Source: Lachnospiraceae bacterium
Lineage (GTDB): Bacteria > Bacillota > Clostridia > Lachnospirales > Lachnospiraceae
Assembly: GCA_900199595.1 (NCBI GenBank)
Contig: FZRB01000008.1
Span: forward strand, 62,001 to 126,000
Direction: 5' to 3'
DNA: 64,000 nt
Shown here: positions 971-19,107 of the stretch, one piece after another
Position numbering within the stretch: position 1 is the stretch's first letter
Layout: every line of letters begins with the position of its first letter
Position numbers and translations under genes: made by a program
The notes under the pieces: model-generated
Told to the model about the DNA's origin: nothing
What the model saw: only the letters and a program-made list of their open reading frames with translations
Databases searched by the model: none

Positions 971-988
971 ATTGAATCTGTATTCAAT
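971..988. promoter_or_regulatory. Operator-like inverted repeat overlapping the -10
   Basis: ATTGAAT-CTGT-ATTCAAT, a 7-bp inverted repeat with a 4-bp centre. It overlaps the -10 hexamer (986-991), the usual place for a repressor. It shares the core TTGAAT-N4-ATTCAA with the site at 1023-1038. Confidence 0.6.
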
Positions 989-1014
989 ATATCACCATAA
1001 AAAAAATTTGTCAA
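986..1014 (-). promoter_or_regulatory. Sigma-70-type promoter of the FAD oxidoreductase gene
   Basis: On the minus strand a perfect -35 TTGACA (1009-1014) is separated by 17 bp from -10 TATATT (986-991). It lies about 50 bp upstream of the ATG at 935. Confidence 0.75.
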
Positions 1015-1121: not shown

Positions 1122-1224
1122 AGATACATAAAAAAGCAAAATTTTATTGATTTTTCTCACATTTTCCCGAACAAGACCCACTGTAAGGACAATTGCCACA
1201 GGGTCCGTGCTTTTTTATGTATCT
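1122..1224. repeat. 17-bp perfect inverted repeat enclosing the mini-gene's 3' end
   Basis: Arms at 1122-1138 and 1208-1224 are exact reverse complements, separated by 69 bp. One arm is inside the mini-protein coding region (encoding RYIKK) and the other lies just after its stop. On the minus strand the second arm contains a run of six T, so the pair could act as a long-looped terminator. Confidence 0.55.
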
Positions 1225-1284
1225 TATGGCCAGTATAAGGAGTATCATTATTACTATTATTGCAATAATCGTGGCTAAATTCAT
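1144..1284 (-). CDS. FeoB-associated Cys-rich membrane mini-protein (46 aa)
   Basis: The start MNLATIIAIIVIMILLILAI is a single membrane helix (residues 4-20), followed by a basic RYIKK stop-transfer and a cysteine-rich tail with four cysteines (CGNC...CSGKC). This is the layout of the FeoB-associated Cys-rich membrane protein family (about 45-60 aa), normally found beside feoB and thought to assist ferrous iron uptake or handling. No feoA/feoB is next to it here; it is the last gene of a signalling operon, 15 bp after the hybrid kinase stop. ATGAGGA upstream can serve as ribosome-binding site. The family match rests on length, helix and cysteine pattern only. Confidence 0.7.
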   Translation of the reverse strand: MNLATIIAIIVIMILLILAIRYIKKHGPCGNCPYSGSCSGKCEKNQ

Positions 1285-1299
1285 GCTAAGTATCCTCAT

Positions 1300-4200
1300 T
1301 TACAATACGTCATATACTTCCTCTGCCTCGTAGATAAGCTCACCTAATATACGTAGAAGATTATCTGTCTCTACAGGTTTACTAAGATGCGCATTCATAC
1401 CTGCCTGCATGGAACGTTGGACATCCTCATCGAAAGCATTTGCTGTAAGCGCAATGATTGGAATCCTTTTGGCATCCTCTCTATCCATGGCACGAATAGT
1501 CTTAGCAGCCTCCAGACCATCCATCTGAGGCATACGCACATCCATTATAATCGCTGCATATACTCCTGCCGTACTTTTCTCGAACATCTCGACGGCTATT
1601 ATTCCATTTGCAGCATGATCAATCTTGATATTCTCGATTTCAAGAGCATCCATCATTATTTCGGCATTGATATCCACATCCTCAGCCAAAAGAATCCGGC
1701 GTCCGGCCAGCTTCGCACGATCTTTTTCCTTGAATATATTCATATTACTACGTCGTGCTATCTGATCTATTTTTTCCAGAATATTTGAAGCAAAAAGCGG
1801 TTTTGCAAGATAGTTATCTACGCCAACTCTTTCAGCTTCCTCCCGAATATCATCCCAGTTATTTGCCGTAAGTGCAACGACCGTACACTCATTTTTAAAT
1901 AGCTTCATTATCTCAGAAGAAGTTTCTGGACCGGTCATTCCAGACATAATCCAATCCATAAAAACGAGATTATATGGCTTATGCTTCGCATGCTGAATCT
2001 CCATTTTTCGAAGCGCTTCCTGTCCACTCGTACAGGCATCTGACTTTATTCCAACCTCATCCAATACCATTTTGGCATGCTCAGCCTCTATTGGGTTATC
2101 ATCTACAATCAAAACCTTTATTGAATCCAGATCTATCTTTTTTTCAAGATCCCTATTCTCATCACTACTATTTTTAAGAGTAAGCGTTACAAAAGTCTTT
2201 GTTCCGACATCTTTATCAGATTCCTTACTGATAGTTCCGTTCATTACTTCTACAAGCTTTTTCGAGATAGCCATGTTTATATTAATGTCATCAGCAGATT
2301 CCTTATTCATGCCGCTGCCGGTATTCGTTATACAAAATCTAAGAGTAGACTGTCCCTCAAACTCTACAGTTTTCTCAATATTAAGAGCGATATTTCCCGG
2401 CGCATCTGTAACGTTAACAGCAGTTTCCAGTATATTTATAAGCAGTTTTCTCAGTTTTACATCATCGCCGTAATAGGTGCTATCCACCTGATTCAGGATA
2501 CGACACTCATAGCTGAGTCCCTTGTCATTACACTGTGGAACAACTCTGTCATTAATCTTTTCCAGCATACCGCTAAAAGAGAATTCTTCCTTTTGAAGAA
2601 CCACACGACCTGCTTCAATCTGACTCATATCCAGTATATTATTTATTATTTCAAGAAGATTATTGGCACTTTCTCCGATCTTATCCAGATACTCATGGGT
2701 TTTATCATCCATGTTCTCATTCTTTACTGCAAGGGTCTGAAGACCTATTATTGCATTGATTGGTGAACGGATCTCGTGACTCATTCCTGAAATAAATTCA
2801 TTATTTATTTTTTTTGCCCGTTCCGCTGAATTGAGTGCCTCTATCAGAGCTTCACTTTTAGCCATCGTCTCACGCATTTCCGAATCAACGTTAGTGATAC
2901 CCATAATGATATACTGATCATTCTGCATGCGAGAGATTTTCATATTAACATAGATCGGATCATCTTCAGTTATTACTCTGTATGTCATGACAAATGCAGC
3001 TTTTTTACTAAGGGCTTTCATCAATGTCTTTCTTTTCATAGCCTGAAGAAAATCGTCCCTGTCATCATCATAAACCTTTTCAGCCAGCTCCATTTTGCAG
3101 TCACTGAAGAAATGCCATCCTCGTCTTACCTCAGATAATGATCCATTTTCGCCGCCATTACGATACTGAATAAATTCCTCTGTATCAACATTGACATAAT
3201 ACAGATCTATATAATCCTGTGCCAGCGTCTGAGCTATGTTGGAATACATCAGTCCTGAGCTGACAGCCTGCTCATAGGCTTCCTTAGTCATATCATGCTC
3301 ATGCTGAACCTTTATCATATCAGTAACATCCTGACACATACCAAGAACACAGAGTCTTCCGGCAGTATCAGTGTATTTCAACTTCGTAGTCTGAAGTTGA
3401 CGACGATTACCTGCAGCATCAGGTACATCTTCGAAAAAGATGTATGGAGTACTAAGTGAAAGTGCCATTTTATCATCCTTAACAAAATGGGCAGCCGTAT
3501 CTGCATCGAAGATCTCGTCATCGGTAAGTCCCGTTACTCCATCAGGGGTTTCCTTATTTGCATACTCGGCAAAAGCCTGATTACATGCCAGATACACACC
3601 GGTTTTTGCATCCTTGGTAAAGGTCATACCCGGCATATTATCCAGTATTGATACGAATCTATCCATTAATTCATTAACCTTTTTATTCTCTTCATGTTCA
3701 ATCTTATAATTCTCCCTCTCATCATTTGCTATAAATGAATGAAGCAGGCAGGTTCCCAGCATATATGCAATAGAATAGATTGGCAGATATGGAAACCAGA
3801 GTTGTACAAAAAGACAAAGAGCCATAATAAATCCAAAAGAAGCCAGTATTCTATATCGAACATGCTTCTCCTCAGTTTTGCTTATTCGAAACATAGATGA
3901 AAAAGCATATACTGAAATAGTAAGCAAAAAAAGAATCTGACAAATCAGCATAAAGTCACGAATCGGAAGGTCATGGTAAACACAAGACTCATCTACTGTA
4001 AATAGTACCGGCACAAATATGTTCACAATAACCATAATTGCAATCGTTAAAGCAATTATTCGTCCGGCATATATCAGAAAACGCCCAAATGGACTTTTCT
4101 CGTCCAGATATGCGACAGTATACTCAGCCCAGAATGATATACCGAGAGCCATAGCTACAAAATATATAGTTGTATCAACAAAAAGTGCTACTACCAGTTT

Positions 4201-4380
4201 CTGACTTTCCAGAATGCCCCATAAAATATCCGTGATATAATAAACCAGAACAGCAAACAGAAAACCTCTGTACACGTTCCATGCAGGTTTATCATAAGAA
4301 ACCTTGAATCCGTGCAGGATGTCCCAGTTCACTATAAAAAGTATCAGAACGGCAAGCAGGCCTATTGTAGAATAATACAT
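1300..4380 (-). CDS. Hybrid sensor histidine kinase, 7TM-PAS-HisKA-(degenerate ATPase)-REC-REC
   Basis: The 1026-aa protein starts with about seven membrane helices (residues 1-220), then a PAS domain (about 240-350), a second PAS-like domain (about 370-500), a HisKA helix with the phospho-acceptor motif MSHEIRSPINA (H535), and two receiver domains with phospho-aspartates D809 and D947. The ATP-binding domain between them is damaged: the N-box reads LETAVNVT, the G1 box NTGSGM has Asn for Asp, and the ATP lid with the second glycine box is missing, so the text runs straight to MAISKKLVEVMNG. It probably cannot bind ATP and may act as a phosphorelay scaffold phosphorylated by the neighbouring kinase. 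Its two PAS-like domains closely match those of the upstream diguanylate cyclase. It lies 7 bp after that gene in the same operon. Confidence 0.85.
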   Translation of the reverse strand: MYYSTIGLLAVLILFIVNWDILHGFKVSYDKPAWNVYRGFLFAVLVYYITDILWGILESQKLVVALFVDTTIYFVAMALGISFWAEYTVAYLDEKSPFGRFLIYAGRIIALTIAIMVIVNIFVPVLFTVDESCVYHDLPIRDFMLICQILFLLTISVYAFSSMFRISKTEEKHVRYRILASFGFIMALCLFVQLWFPYLPIYSIAYMLGTCLLHSFIANDERENYKIEHEENKKVNELMDRFVSILDNMPGMTFTKDAKTGVYLACNQAFAEYANKETPDGVTGLTDDEIFDADTAAHFVKDDKMALSLSTPYIFFEDVPDAAGNRRQLQTTKLKYTDTAGRLCVLGMCQDVTDMIKVQHEHDMTKEAYEQAVSSGLMYSNIAQTLAQDYIDLYYVNVDTEEFIQYRNGGENGSLSEVRRGWHFFSDCKMELAEKVYDDDRDDFLQAMKRKTLMKALSKKAAFVMTYRVITEDDPIYVNMKISRMQNDQYIIMGITNVDSEMRETMAKSEALIEALNSAERAKKINNEFISGMSHEIRSPINAIIGLQTLAVKNENMDDKTHEYLDKIGESANNLLEIINNILDMSQIEAGRVVLQKEEFSFSGMLEKINDRVVPQCNDKGLSYECRILNQVDSTYYGDDVKLRKLLINILETAVNVTDAPGNIALNIEKTVEFEGQSTLRFCITNTGSGMNKESADDININMAISKKLVEVMNGTISKESDKDVGTKTFVTLTLKNSSDENRDLEKKIDLDSIKVLIVDDNPIEAEHAKMVLDEVGIKSDACTSGQEALRKMEIQHAKHKPYNLVFMDWIMSGMTGPETSSEIMKLFKNECTVVALTANNWDDIREEAERVGVDNYLAKPLFASNILEKIDQIARRSNMNIFKEKDRAKLAGRRILLAEDVDINAEIMMDALEIENIKIDHAANGIIAVEMFEKSTAGVYAAIIMDVRMPQMDGLEAAKTIRAMDREDAKRIPIIALTANAFDEDVQRSMQAGMNAHLSKPVETDNLLRILGELIYEAEEVYDVL

Positions 4381-4387
4381 ACGCTAT

Positions 4388-7300
4388 TTATCCTTTTTTT
4401 CTACTCTTTAAATAACTCTTGTTTTCATACATTTTCTGATCTGCACGCTCATAGACCGGAGCTACTTTAGCATCCTTTTCATATCTTGCCACACCCAGAG
4501 CAATCACGATTCCACCATTTTCTACTGCCTCTTCATTATGAATATTCATCTGCTCTATCAGTTTATCAAGTCTTGCATAATCGTCTCCCTGTGAAAGAAC
4601 ACAGAATTCGTCGCCACCCACTCTGAAAACAGGACTGCGTTTGAAGGTCGTACAAATAATCTTGCACGCTTCGCGAAGGTACTGATCTCCAGCTTTATGT
4701 CCCTCAGTATCATTGACCTTCTTCAGATCATTAACATCCAGAATTGTAATAGCAAAATCAGGTGCCCTGTTTATTTCTATCTGTGCATTCAGACGTTCCT
4801 CATATACACGATAAGCATTTCTGTTCTTTACTCCTGTCAGTGCATCTATATTGGCCTCAATACGTGCCTGGGCGAGACGTCTGCTGTATTCTTCTTCCTG
4901 GCGAACCTGAGCATCAATATCATTAACACCGACAATCAGTCGAAGTCCTTCTTCTTCCTCAATCATGGCAGCCTTGAGCTGAACATAACGTGGCTCACCA
5001 TCCGTCCTCAGACGGTAGCTCAGTGTGAAAATACCACTCTGATTTACCTCCTCTAAAACGTTTTCTCTGGTAAGCATCGAAAGAAAACGACTCTGGTCTT
5101 CCTGATAAACCACCTTAGGAGCCCTCTCTCTGGAAGCAGCAAAGAAATCCTGTCCCTCATCAGGCAGATCAAATGGATCAAAACCGGCTGAAGGACTAAA
5201 TTCACGATACTGTCCTGTTTCAGGAACCACAACATAGATGCAGAAGAAATCTCCGGCAAGTGCAGTAATTCTGTTATATGCAACCTGCTCCTCCATTATC
5301 TTCTGAGCAGCATTCTGCGCTTTCACCTGTTCATCGACATCTGTAATACCCAGTATGATGAATCGATCATCGTCCTGCATACGGGTAACCTTCATGGTGA
5401 TATACTTGAAATCCTGATCTGTCATCAGTCGACAAGTTGTCAGGAAAGAATCATTCTGATCAAGTGCAGCAACAAGAGTTTTTCTATCTAGCGCTTCCAT
5501 CACTGCTTTTCTATCCTCAGGATATATATATTCTTCTATCTCATCCTGACACTGTTCAAAGAAATGCCATCCACGACGAAGCTCTGTAAGACTTCCATTC
5601 TCTTTCTCTGTACGATATTCTATGAATTCTTCTGTATTCAGATCAACGTAATATAGATCCAGGTATCCTTTGGCAAGGGTCTGAGCTATATGAGTAAATA
5701 TAATACCTGTATTACGTGCCTTTTCGTAGGATTCCTTAGTTTTTGCATCATCCCTGGATATTCTGAACGTGTCTGAAACATCCTGGAACATACCCAATAC
5801 ACAGAGACGTCCGTTATCATCCGTATACTTCTGCTTTGTAGTCTTCGTCTGACGCATAATACCATTAGCATCCGGCATATCCTCAAAGAAGATATAAGGT
5901 TCATCCATGGAAAGTGCCACACGATCATCCTCAACAAAACGATTTGCTGTCTTTTCATCAAATATATCTTTCGCCGTAAGTCCGACAACTTCAGAAGGAT
6001 CCTTCTTATGGGCATAATTTGCAAAAGCCTGATTACAGGCAAGATAAACGCCTGTTTCGGCATCCTTGGTAAAGTTCATTCCAGGCATATTATCCAAAAG
6101 TGAAGTGATAGTCTGCTTCAGCTTTTCTATTTCTACAGCTTCTTCAAGAAGACGTCTTTGTCTGTCTGCTACGCGTTCTGCCTTCATTTTCTGCACAAGC
6201 AGGAAAATTATAATAGAAAAAACAATAATTAGTATAGCAATAACTATAATCCAGTTATCCTTTAAAAACTGCGTAAAGTATACCTTCTGATCATAAGTCA
6301 TATAGGAAGCAAGTGCGGAATCCATATCCTCACTTTTTGTAATTGATATAGCTTTATTTAACAGGAAATATAACTCGGTATCCCACTTATTTACCGCCAG
6401 CGAAAGAGGCATGGATTCACCTGTCGGAATGGAATATAGCTTATATTTCTTTAAAGTATTTTCTGCAGTTGGTATTCTGTAATTACTTACAAGAACACTA
6501 TCCACTTCACTATTAGAAACAGCTTTGTAACAATTTTCAAGACCTGCATAATCTTTCCTGTTTGCTACCGGATAATTATCCATGATGAAGGTTTCTATAT
6601 TTCGCATTCCCTCATTAACAGCAAAGGTTATCTTACTTTCCTTTGAAAGCTCTTGTTTATCTGAAATGCGTATAATAGCATTCATCTCTGTCTTCATTGC
6701 CGGATCAGTAAGTCTTATACCTCTCTGATCTGCATCATAAGAATTCAGGTAGATTGGGAAAATAGCATCTACTTCTCCGGCTTTTAGAGCAGCCAGCGCT
6801 GCATCTGTTGATTCATAAGGTTTTGTCTCAAACTCTATATTTGAACTGTTCAGATTATTCTCGGCATGGGCAAGAAAAGTCTTCAGTGCACCGGTCAGCT
6901 CGCCAGTCTCTTCATCTTCATCACAAAATGGAAGATAATTATCACGATATCCTATACGAATAGTTCCATGATCTTTTACCCAGTCTTCCTGATTTGGTGT
7001 GAGAAGAGCATTTGTTCTTTTCGTACTGTAAAGCCTGTCAGCAGATATCTTCTGGTTAAAATACGGATCCTCATCCTGTATTTTAGCCAGTGCAATATTA
7101 AGCTCTGTCAGCAGATCCTTACGATTCTTATTAATGGCGTAATAATAATCAGAACCACCGATTCTGCAAACAGGAATCACTTTCTGCTCGGAATCATAAG
7201 AGAAAATAGCAGCATATCCGTCAACCTCACCTCTGGCTACCATTGCCATAGATTCGTTTTCTTCAACAGTAAGCGGAACAACTTCAAGATCAATCCCGTT

Positions 7301-7795
7301 TTTCTCTGACCACTCTATTAAGAAACTTTCCTGAATACTGTCCTTATTTACACCGATACGCTTTCCTTTTAGGGATTCAAGATTATCTGCTGTAATCTCT
7401 CTGTTTTTCGAATCAACATATATGTAATATGACTCTGTTCCCATAGGAAGATCTGAGAAATACATATATTCCTCACGTTCCTTTTTATAGGAAACATCAC
7501 TGAGCATATCTATTTCACCATCCTTCAGCATTTGCAGAAGGTTGGGCCAGCTGTCTTCTACATACTCATAGGTCCAGCCTGTATAAGCTGATATTTTCTG
7601 CTGATATTCATAATCTATTCCACAGCGTCTTCCAAACGAATCAAAGTAACAGAAGGATGAATCATACCATCCGACGCGCACCACCTTATGTTCTTTTTCT
7701 TCTGCATATGCCGTAAACGGCACAAAGGCATTAATTAAAAAAGCAAAAGACAGGAGGATTATTATCATCTGTTTAATATATTTTTTTGTTTGCAT
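4388..7795 (-). CDS. Diguanylate cyclase with two periplasmic-type solute-binding domains
   Basis: 1135 aa: signal peptide (residues 1-31), two tandem family-3 solute-binding domains of the amino-acid-binding type (about 36-255 and 270-510), one membrane helix (about 519-541), PAS domains (about 570-820), a further PAS-like domain (about 840-960) and a C-terminal GGDEF domain with intact GGDEF at 1060-1064. It should make cyclic-di-GMP in response to an external ligand. The RxxD inhibitory site normally five residues before GGDEF is absent (FKRS instead), so product feedback through that site is unlikely. The ATG is 1 bp after the stop of the permease-kinase gene, with GAGGAGGTG inside that gene's end as ribosome-binding site, so translation is probably coupled. 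Confidence 0.92.
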   Translation of the reverse strand: MQTKKYIKQMIIILLSFAFLINAFVPFTAYAEEKEHKVVRVGWYDSSFCYFDSFGRRCGIDYEYQQKISAYTGWTYEYVEDSWPNLLQMLKDGEIDMLSDVSYKKEREEYMYFSDLPMGTESYYIYVDSKNREITADNLESLKGKRIGVNKDSIQESFLIEWSEKNGIDLEVVPLTVEENESMAMVARGEVDGYAAIFSYDSEQKVIPVCRIGGSDYYYAINKNRKDLLTELNIALAKIQDEDPYFNQKISADRLYSTKRTNALLTPNQEDWVKDHGTIRIGYRDNYLPFCDEDEETGELTGALKTFLAHAENNLNSSNIEFETKPYESTDAALAALKAGEVDAIFPIYLNSYDADQRGIRLTDPAMKTEMNAIIRISDKQELSKESKITFAVNEGMRNIETFIMDNYPVANRKDYAGLENCYKAVSNSEVDSVLVSNYRIPTAENTLKKYKLYSIPTGESMPLSLAVNKWDTELYFLLNKAISITKSEDMDSALASYMTYDQKVYFTQFLKDNWIIVIAILIIVFSIIIFLLVQKMKAERVADRQRRLLEEAVEIEKLKQTITSLLDNMPGMNFTKDAETGVYLACNQAFANYAHKKDPSEVVGLTAKDIFDEKTANRFVEDDRVALSMDEPYIFFEDMPDANGIMRQTKTTKQKYTDDNGRLCVLGMFQDVSDTFRISRDDAKTKESYEKARNTGIIFTHIAQTLAKGYLDLYYVDLNTEEFIEYRTEKENGSLTELRRGWHFFEQCQDEIEEYIYPEDRKAVMEALDRKTLVAALDQNDSFLTTCRLMTDQDFKYITMKVTRMQDDDRFIILGITDVDEQVKAQNAAQKIMEEQVAYNRITALAGDFFCIYVVVPETGQYREFSPSAGFDPFDLPDEGQDFFAASRERAPKVVYQEDQSRFLSMLTRENVLEEVNQSGIFTLSYRLRTDGEPRYVQLKAAMIEEEEGLRLIVGVNDIDAQVRQEEEYSRRLAQARIEANIDALTGVKNRNAYRVYEERLNAQIEINRAPDFAITILDVNDLKKVNDTEGHKAGDQYLREACKIICTTFKRSPVFRVGGDEFCVLSQGDDYARLDKLIEQMNIHNEEAVENGGIVIALGVARYEKDAKVAPVYERADQKMYENKSYLKSRKKG

Positions 7796-7796
7796 T

Positions 7797-10640
7797 CTAA
7801 TTCACCTCCTCGGTAGTTCTTTCCATGATCAGTCGCGCCATAGTTTCATATAATCTATCCGGTTCTACGGGTTTTGAAAGATGCGCATCCATTCCCGCTG
7901 CCATAGACCTCTCCTCATCCTCATCAAATACATTTGCCGTCATGGCGATAATAGGAATTCTTTTTGCATCCGGATGTCCCAGAACACGGATGGCGCGGGC
8001 TGCCTCAAGGCCATCCATCACCGGCATCCGGACATCCATAAGTATTGCACTATAGAATCCCGGCTTACTCTTGGAGAACATACTTACTGCATCTTCACCA
8101 TTTCTGGCACGTGCAGAAAGAACACCCTCCAGATCCAGCAGATCAGCGAGAATTTCCGCATTCTGATCCACATCCTCTGCCATAAGAATTCTCTTTCCTG
8201 AAAGAATCTGTTCTATATCTGCAGGAATCTCTTCAGACTCCTTTTTATCATCAAAACTTCGTTCGGATACCATAAGCGGTACTGTTACCGTAAATGCGGA
8301 TCCAGCTCCTCTCTGACTCTCTACATGAATCTCTCCATCCATCATTTCAACAAGATTCTTTGTTATAGCCATTCCAAGACCGCTTCCGCCATATTTGTTG
8401 GTATTTGTGGCATCCTCCTGTGAAAAGGTATCAAATATCTTCGGTATATATTCCGGATCCATACCAATTCCTGTATCCTGCATAATGAACTGCATCATAC
8501 ATCTGCCATTTTCCTCCTTCAGCTGCTTGACTGTAAGAGTCACATTTCCGGGAGAATTAGTAAATTTCACTGAATTACCGAGAATATTTATCAATACCTG
8601 CTTCAGCTTCAGATCATCACCGATATAATAATCCTTTACATTTCCTTCTATACTGCAATCGTACTGCAGTCTCTTATCCTGACACTGCCCACTGATAATT
8701 ATATTAACCTGATTCAGAAATTCCTGAAAAGAGAATTCATCATTCTTCAGTACCATTCGTCCGGATTCAATCCGGCTCATATCCAGAATGTCATTAATAA
8801 CTCCCAGCAGATGATTAGCACTGGCTCCTATCTTCTCCAGATTATCCCTTGTACCGGGGGTCAGCTCCGGATCACGAAGAGCAATACTCTGCAAACCAAT
8901 AATAGCATTCATCGGTGTTCGGATCTCATGACTCATGTTGGAAAGAAAGCTGGTTTTAGCACGGCTGGTTTCCTCAGCGCGAACCTTTTCAACTTCTATT
9001 TTTTTCTCTCTACGCTGCATGATTCCATAGATATCTAAAAGAATTAATAGAGAGAACACAATAAGCATAATCTGAGTCATACTGGCGATATGAACAGGAT
9101 GATGAACTTTTTGTAAATCATCCTTATACTCAGTCAGTGCCCTGTCAATTGTCTGATGCATCCATATGCTTGAGGTAAATATTATCAGTCCCAAAAGCAC
9201 AACCCATGCCACGATGGATCTGCCCATACGACGTTCGCTATCCCTGCTGATAAATATACGAAAATACAACAATCCGCAGATACTCCAGACAGAGAGGATA
9301 AGATACGCTTCCGTAGAAAGTGTACTGATAGAAATCATATTCGGAACGAGAAACTCCAAGGCAAAAAGAACCGATACTATCATTCCGATAAGACCAAAAA
9401 ACTTATATTTCTTATTATTTTCCTGACCGGCCGTCTTCCATGCCGAAGCGGAAGCCAGAGCATAGGCTATAGTTGCTCCTACAGTTGTAACGTCCACGAT
9501 CCAGCTGATCGTTGTACGACCCAGAAACGGAAAGACCGATGAAAACAAAAGAATGCTCAGAATAGCATTTCTGGGAACAAAGCCGTTCTTTCGACCTAAC
9601 CACTCCGGAAAAAGAGCATCCTCAGATAGGGAAACAAGTAAGCGACTTAGCGCAATATAATTTCCAATCAATCCTGTAAATATAGCACCAAGAGCTGCAA
9701 CACCAAGAATAAGACTTCCCATCTCACCAAGGGCTGCATATGCCGAATGAAAGGTTGGCTGTGAAGCCACACCGGAAAAACTGTCCAGTTTTTCTATATA
9801 TTCTGTCCATGAGCTGAAGCCATCCGGAAGAGCTTTTACAGCTAACAGAGTAAGCAGCACATATGTAATAGCTGCCGTAATAACGCCAATAGCTAAAAGA
9901 CTAAAAGACTTTTTCAAAGAAAATCTTACCTCTGCTGCAGAATGTGAGATTGATTCAAATCCTACAAAAGCCCAGGGTGTAAGAGCAAATATAGTGAAAA
10001 CTCCTCCTGCAGCACTGTTCTCCGGAGCATAGGCCGGTGTATACCCACCTGTTCCCAATCGTCCTGTAGCTGCTATAAAACAAATAATAACTCCCATAAA
10101 CAGCAGCACTGCCATAACCACCTGAGTCCAGGCAGCAGTCTTACGAAACAGACAGATTATGGCTGCTAAAACCAGGGCTCCAATAGATAAGAGAAGTTCT
10201 CCGAAATATATAGGATAACCGGCGATCTGATAAAGATATCCAAACCGAAAGGTTTCACCCAGAAGTGTTCTTGCAATAAGAGGAAGTGCCGTCGCATTTG
10301 CCCAGATAACTGCAATATAGGTAAGAATCAGAAACCACGCACCGAGAAAACCCTGATCATAACCAAAGGCTTTCTTGGTATAGGTGTATGCTCCTCCACC
10401 ATCCGGATAATGGTTCATTAGATAGTGATAATTAACAGCCAGAAGCAGTGTGACAAGACCGCCCAGGCTAAGACCAAGTGCAGCACCAATTGGTCCTGCA
10501 ATAGGAAGAAAAGTAGTCCCCGGCATTACAAAAGAGCCCCAGCCTACGCTGCAGCCAAAAGCCAGTGCCCACGCACCGATAAGCCCCAGATATTTTTGCT
10601 GTTCAGAGGTGATACCTTCTTCGCCTGTTGCTCTCCCCAT
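7797..10640 (-). CDS. APC-family amino-acid permease fused to hybrid histidine kinase (HisKA-HATPase-REC)
   Basis: 947 aa. Residues about 12-455 are a full amino-acid/polyamine/organocation permease with about 12 helices ([12 protein letters not shown] near helix 1, [14 protein letters not shown] after helix 2). Two more helices follow (about 470-540), then HisKA with [15 protein letters not shown] (H571), a complete ATPase domain (N-box [10 protein letters not shown]1 DTGIGM, G2 GGSGLGMAI) and a receiver ([11 protein letters not shown]869). It probably senses an amino acid by binding or transport and passes the signal to the Hpt protein encoded just upstream (14 bp). SSS-type transporters fused to kinases (CbrA) are established; an APC permease in this role is less familiar. 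All catalytic motifs are intact. Confidence 0.9.
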
Positions 10641-10654
10641 ACTGTAACCCCTCT

Positions 10655-11032
10655 TTATGTATAGGTTGATTCCTCATATCTTTGTATTTTTTCTACTGTA
10701 AGGCTGTACAAGTCACGGATAGATTGTATCCGCGTTTTCACTTCATCGTCTGAGAGCTTTCTCTCATTACCTGGACGATATTCCTCGGTAAGCTCAGAGG
10801 CCGCATTTGAAAGGGCCACAAGGCCAAGATTCGATGAAACGCCCTTCATTGCATGAGCCGCTTCAAAAAGCTCTGTAGGATCCATACTTTCACCTGCGGT
10901 AAGAAGATGCTCCACAACATCATTCTTTGTAAACTTTCTGATATGCTTATCCACCAGCTTCTCTACACGTAAAACACCAATGGCCTGTTCATAGTCACCA
11001 CCAATATTCTGATATAATTCCTGAAGCGTCAT
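10655..11032 (-). CDS. Histidine phosphotransfer (Hpt) domain protein
   Basis: This 125-aa, single-domain helical protein carries the Hpt signature [12 protein letters not shown], with the phospho-accepting histidine at H60. Such proteins shuttle phosphate between receivers of hybrid kinases and response regulators. As first gene of the operon it is the natural partner for the three receiver domains encoded downstream. No DNA-binding output domain is encoded in the operon, so the phosphate either goes to a regulator elsewhere or regulates the diguanylate cyclase by protein contact. The ATG at 11032 follows AGAAAGGACC. Confidence 0.88.
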
Positions 11033-11112
11033 ATTTGGTCCTTTCTATGGTGAAATATTACCAGATTCTTAATTATCAGACTATACTCGATTTGCTCAGA
11101 AAATCGATTATA

Positions 11113-11118
11113 ATTATA
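11113..11118 (-). promoter_or_regulatory. Extended -10 promoter of the signalling operon
   Basis: On the minus strand TGGTATAAT is an extended -10 element (TATAAT at 11113-11118). No good -35 is present at 17 bp. It lies about 80 bp upstream of the Hpt gene start. Confidence 0.55.
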
Positions 11119-11150
11119 CCACATTCTCTACTTTCTGAATAGATTTTCCT

Positions 11151-11180
11151 TAATAAAAAAGAGTGTCGCTTGCGACACTC
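11151..11180 (-). terminator. Intrinsic terminator after the TetR/DUF998 operon
   Basis: GAGTGTCGC-TT-GCGACACTC (11161-11180), a perfect 9-bp stem, is followed on the minus strand by TTTTTTATTAAGG. It ends minus-strand transcripts from the DUF998 gene just before the promoter of the Hpt operon. Confidence 0.8.
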
Positions 11181-11256
11181 TCCGCGCGAGGCGCGTGCTG
11201 CCAAAAGGCAGCTATCTTCCTTGCGCGCCGAGACACATCCTTAGCGGAGCGGTTTT
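11181..11256. repeat. GC-rich hairpin cluster downstream of DUF998 gene
   Basis: GC-rich for this genome, with stacked inverted repeats: CGCGC-GAG-GCGCG near 11184 and GCTGCC-AAAA-GGCAGC (11197-11212), plus a GCGCGCC further on. No ORF is apparent. It probably forms a structured 3' untranslated region together with the terminator at 11151-11180. Confidence 0.5.
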
Positions 11257-11910
11257 TTACCTTGCTTTTCTGAATCCTCCAAACAGATATAATCCCAGTA
11301 TTGCATTAAATCCCACTGCAGAAAAAGTACTGAATCTTTCAAACACACCAAAATACTCCGGTGGAAAAGCTGCCATACCTATCGGTCCCATAAACATCAT
11401 TGCAAGAGCTATGGCTGCCCAGATACCTGTTCCTCTGACCTCTTTCTTTTTACAGCCTGCAATTATCAGAAGAATCAGGGAAACAATCGATAGAAGTACA
11501 ACAGCCGCTGTAACTATCATATGCATTATTTCCTGGAATCCTCCTATATCCTTTCCTGAATCTGAAAGAGGAAACATTGTATAACCTACACTTGATATCC
11601 AATTCATTATAGTGAAGAGATATATTCCCACTCTGAATAATCTTGTAGATATCTTATTTTCAGATACATAGATAGAAACACATGTTATCGCAACAACATT
11701 TCCCACCTGATAAAATGCCGACAGCTGATTCCAAAGCATCCTCGATGGTGCGCTTTCTGCTGAAAGATCACTTGCCGCCTGCTCCATCCAGTTATATCCC
11801 GGAAATGCAAGTGGCGAAAAGACAATAGCCACAGTATATGAGATGAATGCGATGACTCCCATGAGACCAAGCCAGTTTATTAGTTTCTTACTGCTTTTTT
11901 CTTCGATCAT
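11257..11910 (-). CDS. DUF998-family membrane protein
   Basis: 217 aa with six predicted membrane helices, and the FSPLAFPGYNWMEQAASDLS / NWISSVGYTMFPLSDSG segments characteristic of DUF998 proteins, whose biochemical role is unknown. Its ATG overlaps the TGA of the upstream TetR-type gene by 4 bp (ATGA), so the two are translationally coupled. The TetR protein is therefore likely to control this membrane protein along with itself. Confidence 0.85.
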   Translation of the reverse strand: MIEEKSSKKLINWLGLMGVIAFISYTVAIVFSPLAFPGYNWMEQAASDLSAESAPSRMLWNQLSAFYQVGNVVAITCVSIYVSENKISTRLFRVGIYLFTIMNWISSVGYTMFPLSDSGKDIGGFQEIMHMIVTAAVVLLSIVSLILLIIAGCKKKEVRGTGIWAAIALAMMFMGPIGMAAFPPEYFGVFERFSTFSAVGFNAILGLYLFGGFRKAR

Positions 11911-12518
11911 TTTCTCTTTTCCTTTACTTCATAATTACTGCAGAATTCTTCAATAAAATCCTTCATCATTTTTTTATTTTCGGTTAATCCGGCAAACTTC
12001 AGGTCCGATTCGTAATCAAGAATAGCATGTACTGTCATTGCAAATGAAAATGCAGCTGTATCCACATCCTTAAAGGATGCTATCCCTTTTACAGATAATG
12101 CATAGAAAAGGCTTTTGGTCGCATTTATCATAGTTTCTGTTTCCCTGACCATTATCTCCGCTGCTACGGAATTTATCGACCTTTCTGACATAATCACCTT
12201 ATAAAAAAGAAACATGTCAGGATTGTTCACCATATTACGATAGACGTTCACTGACCCCAGAAGAATATCCTTAAGTGAAGTACCTGCATTAAGTCCGTCA
12301 TAATCTATGCCTGATATAGCAGCCTTTTCTTTAGTCGCATTTCTCAATACTTCATACATCTCTTCCACGATCTCATCCCTGGATGAAAAATGGTTATAAA
12401 GAGACGCCTTTGTTATTCCAACTCTGTCAGCTATCTGCTGCATGGAAACCGTGCCCAGACCATTCTCTGCCGCAAGTTCCAAAGTTGCTTTTATTATTTC
12501 ATTCTTTCTGTTATTCAT
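11907..12518 (-). CDS. TetR/AcrR-family transcriptional regulator
   Basis: 203 aa. An N-terminal helix-turn-helix (residues about 20-50: SMQQIADRVGITKASLYNHF) matches the TetR/AcrR DNA-binding domain; the remainder is a helical ligand-binding and dimerisation domain with no recognisable specificity. A 7-bp inverted repeat sits between its own -35 and -10 (12578-12593), so autorepression, with co-regulation of the overlapping DUF998 gene, is likely. The start follows AAAGGCC. Confidence 0.92.
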   Translation of the reverse strand: MNNRKNEIIKATLELAAENGLGTVSMQQIADRVGITKASLYNHFSSRDEIVEEMYEVLRNATKEKAAISGIDYDGLNAGTSLKDILLGSVNVYRNMVNNPDMFLFYKVIMSERSINSVAAEIMVRETETMINATKSLFYALSVKGIASFKDVDTAAFSFAMTVHAILDYESDLKFAGLTENKKMMKDFIEEFCSNYEVKEKRK

Positions 12519-12572
12519 AATTCAGGCCTTTCAAAACTATAATTTATAAAGCTGTTCTACCTTTCGTTTGCT

Positions 12573-12602
12573 ATATTACTACCGTTCGGTAGTTTTTGTC
12601 AA
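12573..12602 (-). promoter_or_regulatory. TetR-gene promoter with operator
   Basis: On the minus strand -35 TTGACA (12597-12602) and -10 TAATAT (12573-12578, 18-bp spacing) flank the inverted repeat ACTACCG-TT-CGGTAGT (12578-12593). Repressor bound there would block polymerase. The layout is that of TetR autoregulation. Confidence 0.65.
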
Positions 12603-12605
12603 GTA

Positions 12606-12650
12606 TAAAAAAATGACACTTTGAACCTTATTCAAACTGTCATCTTTTTA
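12606..12650 (-). terminator. Terminator hairpin, copy A of the TGACA/TGTCA family
   Basis: Arms ATGACACTTTGAA and TTCAAACTGTCAT around CCTTA, flanked by A and T runs, so it could work on both strands. It follows the hydrolase stop at 12665 and directly abuts the -35 of the TetR gene. Confidence 0.75.
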
Positions 12651-12664
12651 TCAAACTCCATAAA

Positions 12665-13651
12665 TTACATAACAGATAAAACTTTAGTTTCTATAAACGC
12701 TACTCTGTCGAAGATTCTCGGTTTAAATGTACCTGTTATTCCGACCGAAATATTCTTATCTTTATTAATGTATATTATATTTCCCGAATCCCCTATCGCT
12801 GCATATACTTCTTTTCCTTCTATAGGCTTGTACCAGAGATAGCCGTATTCCATATTACCGAATCTTTCACCCAGTTTTTGCCGGGGAGTTAACATTTCCC
12901 TGATGTAATCTTTTGAGACTATGACTTTATCATCCACTCTGCCTTCATTTAATACAAGTTCTCCGATTTTTGCCAGATCCTTGGCTGAAGAGCAAAGGCC
13001 CCATCCGGCTGTTACCGTATCCTGCGGATCTGAGTACCACTCATAATCTCTGGGTTTCTTATTCATGAAAAAATCAAACTGATCTTCTTTACTACTATCA
13101 CCGTGAATCTTATGTTCAGGTATTCCTATAGGAATAAACAGCTTATTATTGGCTATATCGATACACTTTTCTCCAGTTGCTCTCTCTATGATACCGGCCA
13201 GGATCTGAATTCCGAGCGTTGCATATCTGAATTCTCCTGTAATACCATTCCTGCCTCCAAGCTGATCAAGTATAGCAAGCGTCCAATCCTGAGAGGTACA
13301 GACTTTTTTCCATGGTTCTGATTTTCCTTTATACGGAGCAGTCATTGTAAGAAGATGCTTGATTGTCACGTCGTATATAGTCTTTTCACCACGTTTGACG
13401 GTATAATCCGGAAAGAATTCCATAACCTTCTGATCAACGCTTTTAATGCATCCCATATCAAGCGCTATTCCGAAAAGTAATGCCATGACTCCCTTTGTCA
13501 CAGAATTAACGTTAACTGCGTCTGTAGTCTTATATCCATGAAAGTTCAGATCAAGTACAGTTTCACCATCCTTTATGGCATATAACTGACAGATATTACA
13601 CTCATTTCCGGTACTGCATATAATGTATCTGCGTAACTCCTCTTTATTCAT
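12665..13651 (-). CDS. Serine hydrolase, beta-lactamase/class C fold
   Basis: 328 aa without signal peptide. The SxxK active-site motif is NSVTKG (S50-K53), embedded in the family context that continues with CIKSVDQKVMEFFPDY. The second motif, usually YxN, reads YAT here; GDSGN near the C-terminus sits at the third-motif position. Family members include DD-peptidases, esterases and lactamase-like enzymes; the substrate is unknown. The protein probably stays in the cytoplasm, unlike the two larger secreted hydrolases of this window. The ATG follows AAGGAGATT. A 16-bp palindrome lies just upstream. Confidence 0.82.
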   Translation of the reverse strand: MNKEELRRYIICSTGNECNICQLYAIKDGETVLDLNFHGYKTTDAVNVNSVTKGVMALLFGIALDMGCIKSVDQKVMEFFPDYTVKRGEKTIYDVTIKHLLTMTAPYKGKSEPWKKVCTSQDWTLAILDQLGGRNGITGEFRYATLGIQILAGIIERATGEKCIDIANNKLFIPIGIPEHKIHGDSSKEDQFDFFMNKKPRDYEWYSDPQDTVTAGWGLCSSAKDLAKIGELVLNEGRVDDKVIVSKDYIREMLTPRQKLGERFGNMEYGYLWYKPIEGKEVYAAIGDSGNIIYINKDKNISVGITGTFKPRIFDRVAFIETKVLSVM

Positions 13652-13672
13652 TCATAATCTCCTTTTTTATGG

Positions 13673-13688
13673 ATTTGGACGTCCAAAT
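13673..13688. promoter_or_regulatory. 16-bp perfect palindrome upstream of the hydrolase gene
   Basis: ATTTGGACGTCCAAAT is fully self-complementary and lies about 20 bp upstream of the ATG at 13651. Probably an operator for a dimeric regulator. Confidence 0.5.
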
Positions 13689-13747
13689 AAAAGGCTAATC
13701 GAATTAAAAATTCTTTTCAAGTATTTTTTTATAAACTTTCATAATCT

Positions 13748-13789
13748 AAAAAGATGACAGTTTGAACCTGGTTCAACTGTCATCTTTTT
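13748..13789 (-). terminator. Terminator hairpin, copy B of the TGACA/TGTCA family
   Basis: AAAAAGATGACAGTTTGAAC pairs with GTTCAACTGTCATCTTTTT around CTG with a single bulged T. Found 28 bp past the MFS stop codon; the flanking A/T runs allow termination in both directions. Confidence 0.82.
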
Positions 13790-13817
13790 GTGTCGAGAAT
13801 TAAATCCCAGAACTGTT

Positions 13818-15095
13818 TCAGTCTGTATAATTATACTTCTTTAGTTTATGGCCAAAGACAAGGCACATCACGGTTCCTGTTACACCGAGTATGAACATCA
13901 TCAGCGCCGCACCCGATCCCTTTCCTGTTCCGAAAAGAAACTGAAGTGTTCTGCCACTTGTGCTCATAATCGGCTCACATACCTCATCCACCATAAAACC
14001 ACCAAACAAAAGTCCGATAGGGATGGTGAAGAACTGAAGTGTATTTCTGCAGGCATATACTCTTCCCTGAAGATTCGCCGGAATAGTATTCTTCATGATA
14101 ACATTCTGATTCGTACTCATTACCGGAACAAATATCCAGCCAAGTATCTGACCTATGCACCAGAGAACAGGGCTTCTGGAAAATGCCAGAAGATAATTCT
14201 CAGTTGCCAGTGAAAAAAGCATGCTCAGATATATGACCTTCACTCTGTCACGCGGCTTTGGCATAGCCGTTGCTATGAGACTTCCTGCCACCATTGCAAT
14301 TCCCGAACATGAAGTAACGATACCAAGTATACTGTTTCCGCCTCTTGGATTCGGAATGATAAGCGCAGGCAGAACTGCATCAAATGCAGAAGCCACAAAG
14401 TTTACTCCCGACATAAAAAGAATCACATAAAGAATCATCGGAGTATCCTTCAGATACTTAAGACCTTCCTTAGCCAGCTGAAGTACTCCCGCTTCCTTCT
14501 CTTTTCCGTCCGTTGGTATCTCCGGAATTCTGATAAACAGGGCAAGCGCCACAAATGCGATACCAAAGCTTACCAGATCAACTGCTATCGCTGCATCCAG
14601 TCCCGCAAAACCATAAACAGCCGAAGCAATTAAAGGATTACCTATGGTTACCAGGGATCTCGACAGAGACTGTAGTCCACCCGTCTTCTGATAATAATCC
14701 TTCGGCACAACCATGGTATATGCAACTTCAGATGCCGGCTGCTGAACTGTATTCATAAGACCTGACACCGCATTTATCAGATACAGATGCCATACACTCA
14801 GCATATCAAGCTTATACAGAATAAACACTGCTATGGTACTAAGAGCCGCCAGAAGGTCGCATATCAGCATGGTTTTCTTTTTATCAAACTTATCTGATAA
14901 AGCCCCCGCAAATATACTCATCACCACATAGGGTGCATAGGTGCAAATCCTTAGGGCTGCCGTACTGAGAGCTGAACCGGTTTTTTCATATAACCATAAT
15001 GTCAGTGCGAAAGCAGTAATAGCACTCCCGAGTTGTGACAAACTCTGAGTGCTCCATAGTATATAAAAATCTCTTAATTCACTTTTCTTATTCAT
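13818..15095 (-). CDS. MFS transporter, macrolide-efflux (MFS_3) type
   Basis: 425 aa with about 12 membrane helices. The N-terminus (FYILWSTQSLSQLGSAITAF) and the loop 2-3 motif GALSDKFDKKKTM are typical of the MefA-like branch of the major facilitator superfamily, proton-driven drug exporters of the cytoplasmic membrane. The ATG at 15095 has the ribosome-binding site AAAGGAGC, which can be paired into an 8-bp stem (15100-15107 with 15136-15143). A 12-codon leader peptide and strong hairpins precede it, so inducible attenuation by a ribosome-targeting compound is plausible. The substrate is inferred from the family only. Confidence 0.88.
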   Translation of the reverse strand: MNKKSELRDFYILWSTQSLSQLGSAITAFALTLWLYEKTGSALSTAALRICTYAPYVVMSIFAGALSDKFDKKKTMLICDLLAALSTIAVFILYKLDMLSVWHLYLINAVSGLMNTVQQPASEVAYTMVVPKDYYQKTGGLQSLSRSLVTIGNPLIASAVYGFAGLDAAIAVDLVSFGIAFVALALFIRIPEIPTDGKEKEAGVLQLAKEGLKYLKDTPMILYVILFMSGVNFVASAFDAVLPALIIPNPRGGNSILGIVTSCSGIAMVAGSLIATAMPKPRDRVKVIYLSMLFSLATENYLLAFSRSPVLWCIGQILGWIFVPVMSTNQNVIMKNTIPANLQGRVYACRNTLQFFTIPIGLLFGGFMVDEVCEPIMSTSGRTLQFLFGTGKGSGAALMMFILGVTGTVMCLVFGHKLKKYNYTD

Positions 15096-15290
15096 TTTTC
15101 TTTGCTCCTTTAACCAAGTAAATATTTAAGTATTAGAGCAAAGCCTGAGGAAAGAACCATATCTATATCAATACCATTCCAAAAGGCTATATCAATGATA
15201 TATCAGATACAATTCCGTATCCTCCATGCAGTCTCCTCAAGCTCTGCATGGAGCTGTTATTTCGCAACGTCTCATCTGGATACCTCCACT
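15096..15290 (-). promoter_or_regulatory. Leader region with attenuator-type hairpins upstream of the MFS gene
   Basis: Reading on the minus strand: a leader ORF (15237-15275); a perfect 10-bp hairpin CTCCATGCAG/CTGCATGGAG (15222-15231 with 15244-15253) that overlaps the end of the leader ORF; further short stems (GATAC...GTATC); then CTTTGCTC (15136-15143) complementary to GAGCAAAG (15100-15107), the segment that carries the MFS ribosome-binding site. This resembles erm- or mef-type attenuation, where a stalled ribosome on the leader rearranges the hairpins and frees the downstream start. Confidence 0.6.
15237..15275 (-). CDS. Candidate regulatory leader peptide, 12 aa
   Basis: ATG at 15275 with an excellent ribosome-binding site (TGGAGG, 8 nt upstream) encodes MRRCEITAPCRA and stops at TGA. 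Its last codons form one arm of a perfect 10-bp hairpin. The strong initiation signal on such a short ORF, in front of an efflux-type gene, points to a stalling leader peptide. No experimentally known leader is recognised in the sequence. Confidence 0.55.
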   Translation of the reverse strand: MRRCEITAPCRA

Positions 15291-15324
15291 ATTAATCTTA
15301 TTTTTTTATCTTTAAAATCATCAT

Positions 15325-16521
15325 TTAGATAGTTCTAAGCAGATCCTTCTTTTTTAAACCATTCTGCTTTCCGGATGCAGGCCAGCCGGAATTGGCGGCA
15401 AGCATATAAAGTGCTCGTGGAAACAGATACGAATCCGCATATATATCTTCCAGCTTCGCAGCTTCATTTATTGTCTCACTTAATCTATCAAGACCATCGA
15501 AAGCATTCTTTCCGGGATTCTTACTGCCCTTTGGAGTCTTGGTGAATTGTCCGACCATTTCACCGGCTCCGATGGCAACTCCACCACAGTATTCGTATCC
15601 ACTCTTCCTGCACCAGTTTTTAATCTGCTTCAGTGCATTTTTTATCTGACTGCTTTCATAAAAGCCCATATTGATCACAGAATATATTTTAACACCTGTT
15701 TGAGGATTTGTCTTCTCCAGTTTTTCCATAATCTTAAGCATTTGAGAAGGAACGCCGTCAACATATAAAGGGAAGCCAAGAACTATCTTTCCTGCTGATG
15801 AAAGAATCTCCACCAATTCATCCTGTTTATTAATATACTGTGAGAGGTTGATGCTTTCAACATCTCCATTTATGTCCTTTGAAAGTCTGTCCAGGAAATG
15901 TTTTGAATTGGCTTTATCTCCTCTCATGCTGCCGTTCAGGAGAATGACTTTTTTATGATTATTCTTCGTGACAGATTTAGTGTCAGTTTTGGTCGCAGCT
16001 GAATTATCCTTAACGCAATGTCTTTCTGATATATCACCATCCGCTCCTATAGCTTCTTCAAAACGAACCTCTTTTACAATACCACGGAAGTTTCTGCAGA
16101 CAGCTGCCACATATTTTTTAGCATCCTCTTTATCTTCTTCGCTAAGATCATTTCCTCTGAAGATAAATGTAATGGACTTATCCTCCGGATATCTTCTCTT
16201 ATGATGCATCTCGCCTTCATATATTTCAAAAAAAGGAAGAACCCAGCCTATACTTCTGTCGAATACATTTTTCACAAAACTGCTGAAGCCTCCATAGGTA
16301 TATCTGCTGATAACAACAACCTCATCAGCCTTATGAATGAGCGCACCCATTTTGTCATATCCATCCTTGATGACGCACTCACCGGGACTTTTAATCCAGC
16401 AGCCAAAGCAGCCTGCACAGGGCTTTATCTTATCTGAATAAGATATAACTTCCCAGCCACTATATTCAGACGATACTTTGTTCCATTCCTCTTCATTTAA
16501 ATCATGAATTATCAGATTCAT
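15325..16521 (-). CDS. Tandem flavodoxin-fold (NAD(P)H-dependent FMN reductase-like) protein
   Basis: 398 aa. Residues 1-175 resemble the flavodoxin-family/NADPH-dependent FMN reductases with the signature CAGCFGCWIKSPGECV, an iron-sulphur-flavoprotein-like cysteine segment; a lysine/threonine-rich linker (about 175-190) leads to a second flavodoxin-like domain beginning KVILLNGSMRGDKANS (about 191-340). The C-terminal 50 residues are not assigned. Such proteins bind FMN and transfer electrons from NAD(P)H; two in one chain suggests gene fusion. No signal peptide. The gene is followed 50 bp later by the leader peptide of the MFS transporter. Confidence 0.78.
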   Translation of the reverse strand: MNLIIHDLNEEEWNKVSSEYSGWEVISYSDKIKPCAGCFGCWIKSPGECVIKDGYDKMGALIHKADEVVVISRYTYGGFSSFVKNVFDRSIGWVLPFFEIYEGEMHHKRRYPEDKSITFIFRGNDLSEEDKEDAKKYVAAVCRNFRGIVKEVRFEEAIGADGDISERHCVKDNSAATKTDTKSVTKNNHKKVILLNGSMRGDKANSKHFLDRLSKDINGDVESINLSQYINKQDELVEILSSAGKIVLGFPLYVDGVPSQMLKIMEKLEKTNPQTGVKIYSVINMGFYESSQIKNALKQIKNWCRKSGYEYCGGVAIGAGEMVGQFTKTPKGSKNPGKNAFDGLDRLSETINEAAKLEDIYADSYLFPRALYMLAANSGWPASGKQNGLKKKDLLRTI

Positions 16522-16853
16522 CTCACTACCTCACTATGATAACTACACACTTAATTCTATATTGACTTAACTGTAACACATAACTATTTATATGACATAA
16601 GTGTCAAAAGTCAAAAAGCGTTCTTGCTTGCAAGAAAAGCTTGTTGACTTTATGCCACGCTGAAACATGAGGAAATAGCAATTTTCGTAGAAAATTAGCG
16701 GTTTCCGAATGTTTCTAGGATTGCGAGAACAGTCCTCGATTATGCAATAATCGAGGATCCGAAGGATGCGTTCTGCAAAGCAGAACCAAGACTTGCAAAG
16801 CAAGGCTTGCATATCTCCTCTGGAGATATGGCACGAATTGCTTTAGCAATGGA

Positions 16854-16904
16854 GCAATCCGTATGTCATATGGTGTCAAAAGGTACTTTTGACACCCACA
16901 TCAT
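16854..16904 (+). repeat. 51-bp repeat copy 1 (hairpin GGTGTCAAAAG/CTTTTGACACC)
   Basis: Contains an 11-bp perfect stem around GTA at 16872-16896. It matches the reverse complement of 55330-55380, at the trpA 3' end, at 50 of 51 positions. Confidence 0.9.
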
Positions 16905-16976
16905 TTATATAATAAAAGTATATACATATCAGTAGATTCTTAATAGTGAAATATGTAATTATCTGCATATGACTAT

Positions 16977-17015
16977 TGTCATATGGTGTCAAAAGGTACT
17001 TTTGACACCCACATC
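16977..17015 (+). repeat. 39-bp repeat copy 2
   Basis: Identical over 39 bp to the core of copy 1 (16864-16902), 113 bp away in the same orientation. It lies 11 bp after the hydrolase stop codon at 17026, on the downstream side of that minus-strand gene, so it may also end that transcript. Confidence 0.9.
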
Positions 17016-17025
17016 TTGTAATTAC

Positions 17026-19035: not shown

Positions 19036-19107
19036 ATTTATGTTTCTCCTAAATCTACTTTACCCCTAATCCGCCCCTTCGGGGCACCTTCCCCCAGAGA
19101 GAAGTCT

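Follow-up and report, generated by a model that had tools for sequence, protein, structure and literature searches.

A conserved gene order in Lachnospiraceae linking a putative nutrient-sensing phosphorelay to cyclic-di-GMP

Predicted products of the locus

We analyzed a 64,000-nucleotide stretch of a Lachnospiraceae bacterium genome (GenBank assembly GCA_900199595.1, contig FZRB01000008.1, positions 62,001 to 126,000), referred to here as the window, in which the list of open reading frames (ORFs) places five genes head to tail on the minus strand between positions 11032 and 1144. In order of transcription these encode a stand-alone Hpt phosphotransfer protein, a hybrid histidine kinase fused to an APC-family permease domain (APC-kinase), a diguanylate cyclase with two solute-binding protein (SBP) domains (SBP-cyclase), a seven-transmembrane hybrid kinase (7TM-kinase), and a Cys-rich small membrane peptide. 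The first four genes recur in the same order in related genomes and may form a nutrient-sensing module that sets cyclic-di-GMP. They are separated by 14, 1, and 7 nt, while the gap to the peptide gene is 0 or 15 nt depending on whether its ATG is placed at 1299 or 1284, in agreement with the tight spacing reported in a preliminary description of the locus.

The Hpt protein (125 amino acids, 10655..11032, minus strand; PF01627, 34.5 bits) has an intact HAMKG motif, and its phospho-accepting His was present in 71/71 alignment rows, a number that includes repeat copies. The APC-kinase (947 amino acids, 7797..10640, minus strand; Pfam AA_permease_2-HisKA-HATPase_c-REC) consists of a permease-like domain at residues ~1-470, two more predicted membrane helices at ~471-545, and then the HisKA, HATPase_c, and REC domains, with the kinase motifs intact in its alignment row. 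The only Pfam matches in its membrane part were to AA_permease_2/AA_permease, with no SLC5 domain, and the stretch between the APC and HisKA domains, which holds two membrane helices, gave zero Pfam matches at E 0.1 (Pfam possibly having no STAC model). Fold matches of its AlphaFold model, which has a mean predicted local distance difference test score (pLDDT) of 82.3, include the amino-acid transporters AdiC, a bacterial CAT homologue, and BasC, as well as the kinases ShkA and GacS, with ShkA the best by E-value. By sequence, a transporter domain and a predicted active kinase are joined in one chain, and the components expected for a His-Asp-His-Asp phosphorelay (DHp, CA, REC, and Hpt) are all intact within the operon. 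No stand-alone homologue of the APC domain was found in the genome at E 0.01. We also considered a GWG motif in the first membrane helix as a mark of sensor-specific APC domains. A script found this motif in 71/75 fused APC rows, the remaining four being L052 (GWG by eye), two with GQG, and one truncated. The candidate was rejected, as 6/8 permeases from plasmid records (8 fetched of 30 matches) carry GWG too, so the motif is uninformative on sensing versus transport.

The SBP-cyclase (1135 amino acids, 4388..7795, minus strand; Pfam two SBP_bac_3, PAS_4, and GGDEF) carries a BvgS-like tandem pair of SBP_bac_3 domains, a membrane segment at ~505-540, and then PAS_4, PASb, PASc, and GGDEF domains. 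In a comparison with BvgS (4q0c), residues 8-469 of a 483-residue query aligned, which covers almost the entire tandem; the pair has matches to single amino-acid-binding proteins as well. We infer amino acids as the probable ligands of the operon from the APC and SBP_bac_3 domain families. The GGDEF motif is intact in 12/12 cyclases of the window-type operons described below that reach the motif (two of them from one assembly), and the operon cyclase is accordingly predicted to be active by its GG(D/E)EF motif. The PAS_4 modules of the cyclase and the 7TM-kinase are 66% identical and their PASb domains 47% identical. The module is rare in this genome, with 3 copies at E 1e-8, the third lying in a hybrid kinase on contig C8.

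The 7TM-kinase (1026 amino acids, 1300..4380, minus strand; Pfam PAS_4-HisKA-weak HATPase_c-two REC) is organized as seven predicted membrane helices, PAS_4, PASb, a DHp domain with its His present, a degenerate ATPase (CA) domain, REC1, and REC2; the seven N-terminal helices come from an AlphaFold model of low confidence (mean pLDDT 66.4, predicted template-modelling score 0.31). In the alignment, the CA domain of the window copy has lost the N-box Asn and the G1 Asp, and its G2 ATP lid is deleted. Across 11 rows, 7 relatives have an intact domain, the window has a degenerate one, and L045, L046, and L048 have lost it entirely, while the DHp His is present in 11/11 rows, the REC1 Asp and Lys in 11/11, and the REC2 Asp in 10/10 (L042 being cut). 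The term pseudokinase applied in the preliminary description thus suits the protein of the window; for its family it does not hold, given the seven relatives with an intact ATPase domain. From the alignment, the protein is a member of a kinase-to-pseudokinase decay series in which the phospho-accepting His and Asp residues are retained, unlike DivL, where the phospho-accepting His is reportedly replaced by Tyr.

Gene order in relatives and probable origin of the operon

A scan of contigs yielded 46 loci, 43 of them with the APC-kinase inside the locus. The Hpt pairing could be judged in 39 of these, which retain their contig start and have 400 nt or more of upstream sequence. An Hpt gene lies on the same strand within 460 nt upstream in 35 of them; the exceptions are L072, L073, L075, and the broken copy L082. 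We call the window order of Hpt, APC-kinase, SBP-cyclase, and 7TM-kinase type A. An SBP-cyclase gene comes next after the APC-kinase in 12 loci from 11 genomes of Lachnospiraceae/Eubacterium (L046 and L050 belong to one assembly), several of these loci being cut by contig ends, with a spacing of -35 to +1 nt by longest-ORF starts, and the 7TM-kinase gene follows the cyclase in 10/10 type A loci whose downstream sequence reaches 4.5 kb. The APC-kinases of these loci are 65-79% identical to that of the window, which argues that the gene order is not merely the result of recent copying. Judged from these locus counts, the four-gene order has been retained beyond chance, and the idea that it might not be conserved elsewhere, on which the preliminary description would have been withdrawn, does not hold. 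Two loci are less regular: the cyclase of L041 is divided between two ORFs, and in L080 the cyclase and 7TM-kinase lie behind a REC fragment at the contig edge. The NE2001 assembly carries the same type A operon on two contigs (L046 and L050, zero APC tree distance), either a recent duplication or an assembly artefact.

Type A is nevertheless uncommon, as within a sample of 397 genomes from the window's family it was seen in the window genome only among the 30 that matched at E 1e-130 or better. By reading of the match table, these 30 comprise 25 genomes with an APC-kinase (the window genome included), two with APC-GGDEF, and three that match via the kinase half. In the next closest, G332, whose sequence is divided between two contigs, the APC-kinase is preceded by no Hpt and followed by no cyclase.

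The claim of a five-gene operon was upheld for these four genes and not for the fifth. The Cys-rich peptide (46 amino acids from the ATG at 1284; 1144..1284, minus strand) resembles FeoB-associated proteins and scores 14.4 bits against PF12669, below the 27-bit cut-off for membership. Among ORFs with at least 3 Cys within 450 nt after the 7TM-kinase, one resembling the peptide, as judged by eye, was found in 0/9 relatives checked. We therefore rejected it as a fifth member, and the peptide is probably a passenger outside the conserved unit. Sequence scans gave candidate borders on both sides: upstream, a hairpin resembling a terminator for the gene before the operon (11158..11183, minus strand), and, downstream, a near-consensus promoter-like site, TTGACA-17-TATATT (986..1014, minus strand), that would serve the next transcription unit.

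In a second arrangement, type B, Hpt and the APC-kinase occur with a response regulator of REC-GGDEF-EAL architecture whose GGDEF domain is degenerate. Type B accounts for 19 of the 46 loci, from Clostridia, Lachnospiraceae, Oscillospiraceae, Atopobiaceae, and Coriobacteriaceae, and in 17/19 a kinase-REC of ~500 amino acids is directly upstream of the regulator. The regulators are 561-595 amino acids long, except that of L054, with 485 amino acids and an interrupted EAL. Since 19/19 carry both the EAL and the DDFG motif and 0/19 carry a GGDEF motif, phosphodiesterase activity is expected, and we take these regulators to be predicted cyclic-di-GMP phosphodiesterases. Among these and related proteins, EGVE residues were seen directly in L067, L052, L104, L107, and L178, DDFG in L122, and the REC Asp in L052, L058, L103, L104, L107, L178, and L179. 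The association extends to 7/28 more distant APC-kinase loci that adjoin a regulator of this kind (L098, L099, L101-L104, and L107; divergently transcribed in L098 and L101). Moreover, the contig of L058, which also bears a type B operon, encodes an APC-GGDEF-REC-GGDEF-EAL fusion of 1311 amino acids (14479-18414, plus strand) and an APC-GGDEF fusion of 732 amino acids (18770-20968, minus strand). Another locus, L123 (3128-10404, minus strand), offers one more pairing of APC-kinase and cyclase: its distant APC-kinase is followed by a PAS4-PASb-PASc-GGDEF protein that has no SBPs and by a 7TM-like GGDEF protein.

In the midpoint-rooted APC tree, all type A rows belong to one clade of 16 (support 100/99). 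Twelve of these, counting the window, carry the cyclase; L043 and L071 run out at a contig edge, L091 repeats the window, and L051 has no cyclase, so that the cyclase is present in 12/13 readable rows. G332 (100/86) is the next to join, and two type B loci follow, first L060 (98/89) and after it L052 (82/85). As type A is nested among type B loci, it most likely derives from type B. Two loci make the boundary between the types less sharp and fit the gain of an SBP gene near an older operon. In the type B locus L054 (6602-8032, plus strand), a LacI-type binding-protein ORF and then the start of an SBP gene follow, the latter 940 nt after the APC-kinase and 90% identical to the first SBP of the window over 51 residues, though it contains a stop and runs off the contig; in L082, an SBP start (88%) lies just upstream of the broken APC-kinase.

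Within the type A clade, L067 and L051 form the first branch. L067 has a further, overlapping fifth gene (10880-14041, plus strand) that encodes two SBP domains followed by a degenerate GGDEF and an EAL domain, and this GGDEF-EAL part groups with the type B regulators at a Shimodaira-Hasegawa-like approximate likelihood ratio of 100 (85 for the type B regulators alone) in a quick tree made without bootstrap. On the simplest reading of this single locus, two solute-binding domains replaced the receiver of a phosphodiesterase, which points to direct ligand control of cyclic-di-GMP enzymes beside the phosphorelay.

Probable cyclic-di-GMP output and competing readings

The operon encodes no DNA-binding output by Pfam, as had been noted in the preliminary description, and no terminal response regulator with an output domain, such as type B possesses. 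The output proposed there, cyclic-di-GMP, also gains from the comparison: it is the likeliest output, because sister operons encode the same Hpt and APC-kinase with a REC-GGDEF-EAL regulator and because APC-GGDEF fusions exist, and gene order, fusions, and ancestry together give this sequence-based assignment good support.

We hypothesize that the operon senses nutrients and sets cyclic-di-GMP, with the 7TM-kinase as a phosphoryl-accepting partner, and assign this reading a probability of about 0.5. Both the APC-kinase and the SBP-cyclase would sense amino acids, the latter being gated by two extracellular amino-acid-type SBPs together with its PAS domains. The APC-kinase would pass phosphoryl groups along a His-Asp-His(Hpt)-Asp route, whose last Asp would in the ancestor have been located on the phosphodiesterase. 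In the window type, this phosphodiesterase regulator would have gone from the operon, leaving as the remaining receivers in cis those of a catalytically dead 7TM-PAS kinase, which could act as a RetS-like phosphoryl-accepting partner that tunes the APC-kinase and Hpt. The PAS_4-PASb module common to the cyclase and the 7TM-kinase might sense the same cue in both or couple them. The net output would be cyclic-di-GMP, to which riboswitches at other sites of the genome would respond.

Several observations weigh against this reading. The cyclase has no REC domain by Pfam, and its link to the phosphorelay is putative, as is any contact with the 7TM-kinase through the common PAS module. Where the CA domain is degenerate or deleted (four forms), DHp domains are 52-67% identical (6 pairs), versus 63-87% in forms with an intact one (11 of 21 pairs), and this lower conservation means that constraint on the retained His may be partly relaxed where the CA domain is lost. 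L051, a member of the type A clade, has Hpt and the APC-kinase and no cyclase in the 316 nt downstream (13394-13709, plus strand), where the ORF resembles by eye the start of a glycerol kinase, so the pairing of APC-kinase and cyclase is not fixed. With 42 GGDEF matches in the window genome, 41 of them above cut-off, output specificity is uncertain. Finally, phosphoryl groups may leave for regulators outside the operon: the type B regulator has a strong match in 12/12 type A-clade genomes tested, and in 11/12 this is a REC-GGDEF-EAL protein encoded outside the operon with its own adjoining Hpt (11/11).

The wider cyclic-di-GMP network of the window genome includes 16 EAL matches and four c-di-GMP-I riboswitches, and no PilZ protein was found in it. 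One of these riboswitches precedes a pair of ORFs that carry prepilin N-methylation motifs (L148, 2979-4558, minus strand, G000:C13), from which it is possible that pili are under cyclic-di-GMP control. Within the window itself, the sole Rfam match at gathering score is a Clostridiales-1 small RNA (RF01699, 79.2 bits) at 16593-16746 on the plus strand.

The out-of-operon regulators are central to a rather unlikely alternative, in which the relay acts in trans on a REC-GGDEF-EAL protein that opposes the operon cyclase, the 7TM-kinase being a mere phosphoryl sink. One full-length protein of this architecture in the window genome (L146, 4506-6227, minus strand, G000:C22) has no adjacent Hpt, and two of the eight Hpt matches of the genome are stand-alone; type B pairs Hpt with such a regulator, and in G401 the out-of-operon regulator lies on the operon's own contig, ~24 kb away, the other ten being on contigs that differ in length from that of the operon. 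Conversely, the Hpt proteins beside the out-of-operon regulators belong to an NLSLTP-like subfamily, as opposed to the NLGL type of the operon Hpt, and the window genome retains that subfamily on C15. These regulator-Hpt pairs (L172-L181 and L183) are often beside further hybrid kinases, and the twelfth genome, G407, matches through the SBP-phosphodiesterase of L067 itself. Moreover, the C22 regulator is closest in the tree to the C-terminal part of the APC-GGDEF-REC-GGDEF-EAL fusions, not to the type B regulators. We also considered whether the out-of-operon proteins are relocated type B regulators, which is unsupported since they fall outside the type B clade and accompany another Hpt subfamily. 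The other stand-alone Hpt of the window genome (L131, 4448-6738, minus strand, G000:C15) lies 20 nt before a 644-amino-acid EAL protein that has no other Pfam domain.

It is also doubtful that the cyclase and the relay are simply parallel sensors with transcription and ligand class in common, the cyclase being gated by its SBPs alone and the relay addressing a target unrelated to cyclic-di-GMP. The missing receiver of the cyclase would be expected in that case, the replacement of a receiver by SBPs in L067 would represent a loss of phospho-control, and L051 has the relay with no adjoining cyclase. Against this, the linkage of APC-kinases to cyclic-di-GMP enzymes recurs, in the 19 type B loci, the 7/28 distant loci, and the APC-GGDEF fusions.

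The role of the 7TM-kinase as a bridge between phosphorelay and cyclase is possible, and is the most interesting and least supported step. In its full form, the phosphorelay-driven phosphodiesterase would have been exchanged for a ligand-gated cyclase, and the 7TM-kinase, on its way to an ATPase-free partner that still bears its phospho-accepting His and two receivers, would be fed by the APC-kinase via Hpt and would control this cyclase by PAS-PAS pairing, a scheme that we regard as improbable; if true, the last receiver of the relay would act in trans on a second-messenger enzyme through a dead kinase. The common PAS module, taken as proof of such a bridge, is weakened by the third PAS_4 copy in the separate hybrid kinase on C8.

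Least likely, and quite improbable, is a feedback in which cyclic-di-GMP from the cyclase binds the hybrid kinases and sets their kinase/phosphatase balance, the messenger becoming a relay input: ShkA (PMC7010744) and CckA (PMC4853435) are hybrid kinases under cyclic-di-GMP control, ShkA is the best fold match of the APC-kinase model, and the 7TM-kinase has the layout DHp-CA-REC1-REC2, but the ShkA site is a pseudo-receiver, whereas REC1 here has its Asp and Lys in every row, and the 7TM protein of the window has no functional CA domain to regulate.

Comparison with known signaling systems

In line with the preliminary description, no account of the unit was found in the literature searched, subscription journals being mostly outside it; nor, with the same coverage, was a description of APC-histidine-kinase or APC-GGDEF proteins, or in that literature a dedicated study of cyclic-di-GMP in the rumen or in Butyrivibrio. 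The related operons and fusions tie a permease family other than SLC5 to cyclic-di-GMP enzymes in gut and rumen bacteria, through retained gene order and through joined genes. They may be natural intermediates in which a second-messenger enzyme moves from phosphoryl to direct ligand control, suggesting how bacteria may swap modes of cyclic-di-GMP control, and they also bear on the fate of a histidine kinase after loss of its ATPase domain.

The closest likeness of the APC-kinase is to CbrA of the Pseudomonas CbrA/CbrB system, an SLC5-STAC-PAS-kinase 'transceptor' that transports and senses L-histidine (PMC7096432, PMC13022988), as both fuse an amino-acid transporter domain to a histidine kinase. 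Few transporter-kinases are known, and the studied examples CbrA, CrbS, and RpuS have SLC5 domains. Unlike CbrA, the operon kinase has an APC-family domain, a C-terminal REC, an Hpt partner, and linkage to a cyclic-di-GMP enzyme, and no sigma54 regulator.

With respect to output, the type B operons are reminiscent of RocS1/RocR of P. aeruginosa, reportedly a sensor kinase with a REC-EAL response regulator, in that a kinase network includes an EAL response regulator. Type B differs in its APC sensor, its separate Hpt, and its REC-GGDEF-EAL regulator, and the window operon lacks the REC-EAL protein. The cyclase resembles BvgS in its tandem Venus-flytrap SBP pair followed by PAS, with a GGDEF output instead of kinase, REC, and Hpt in one chain. 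RetS is said to work by pairing with GacS (co-complex 7n0e) and to have a periplasmic domain. The 7TM-kinase is comparable, in its modelled form, as a 7TM hybrid of DHp-(CA)-REC-REC layout that has no productive kinase and is encoded beside a true kinase with Hpt, but it has a PAS pair instead of that domain, and its CA is degenerate or deleted.

Taken by analogy, the operon would resemble a CbrA-type transceptor joined to a Roc-like EAL output in type B, or to a BvgS-like receptor with a cyclase output in type A, while by the features examined it is a member of none of the CbrA, Roc, or BvgS systems. More generally, the genomic evidence is consistent with a nutrient-sensing phosphorelay tied to cyclic-di-GMP that is a variant relative to CbrA, BvgS, RocS1/RocR, and RetS/GacS.

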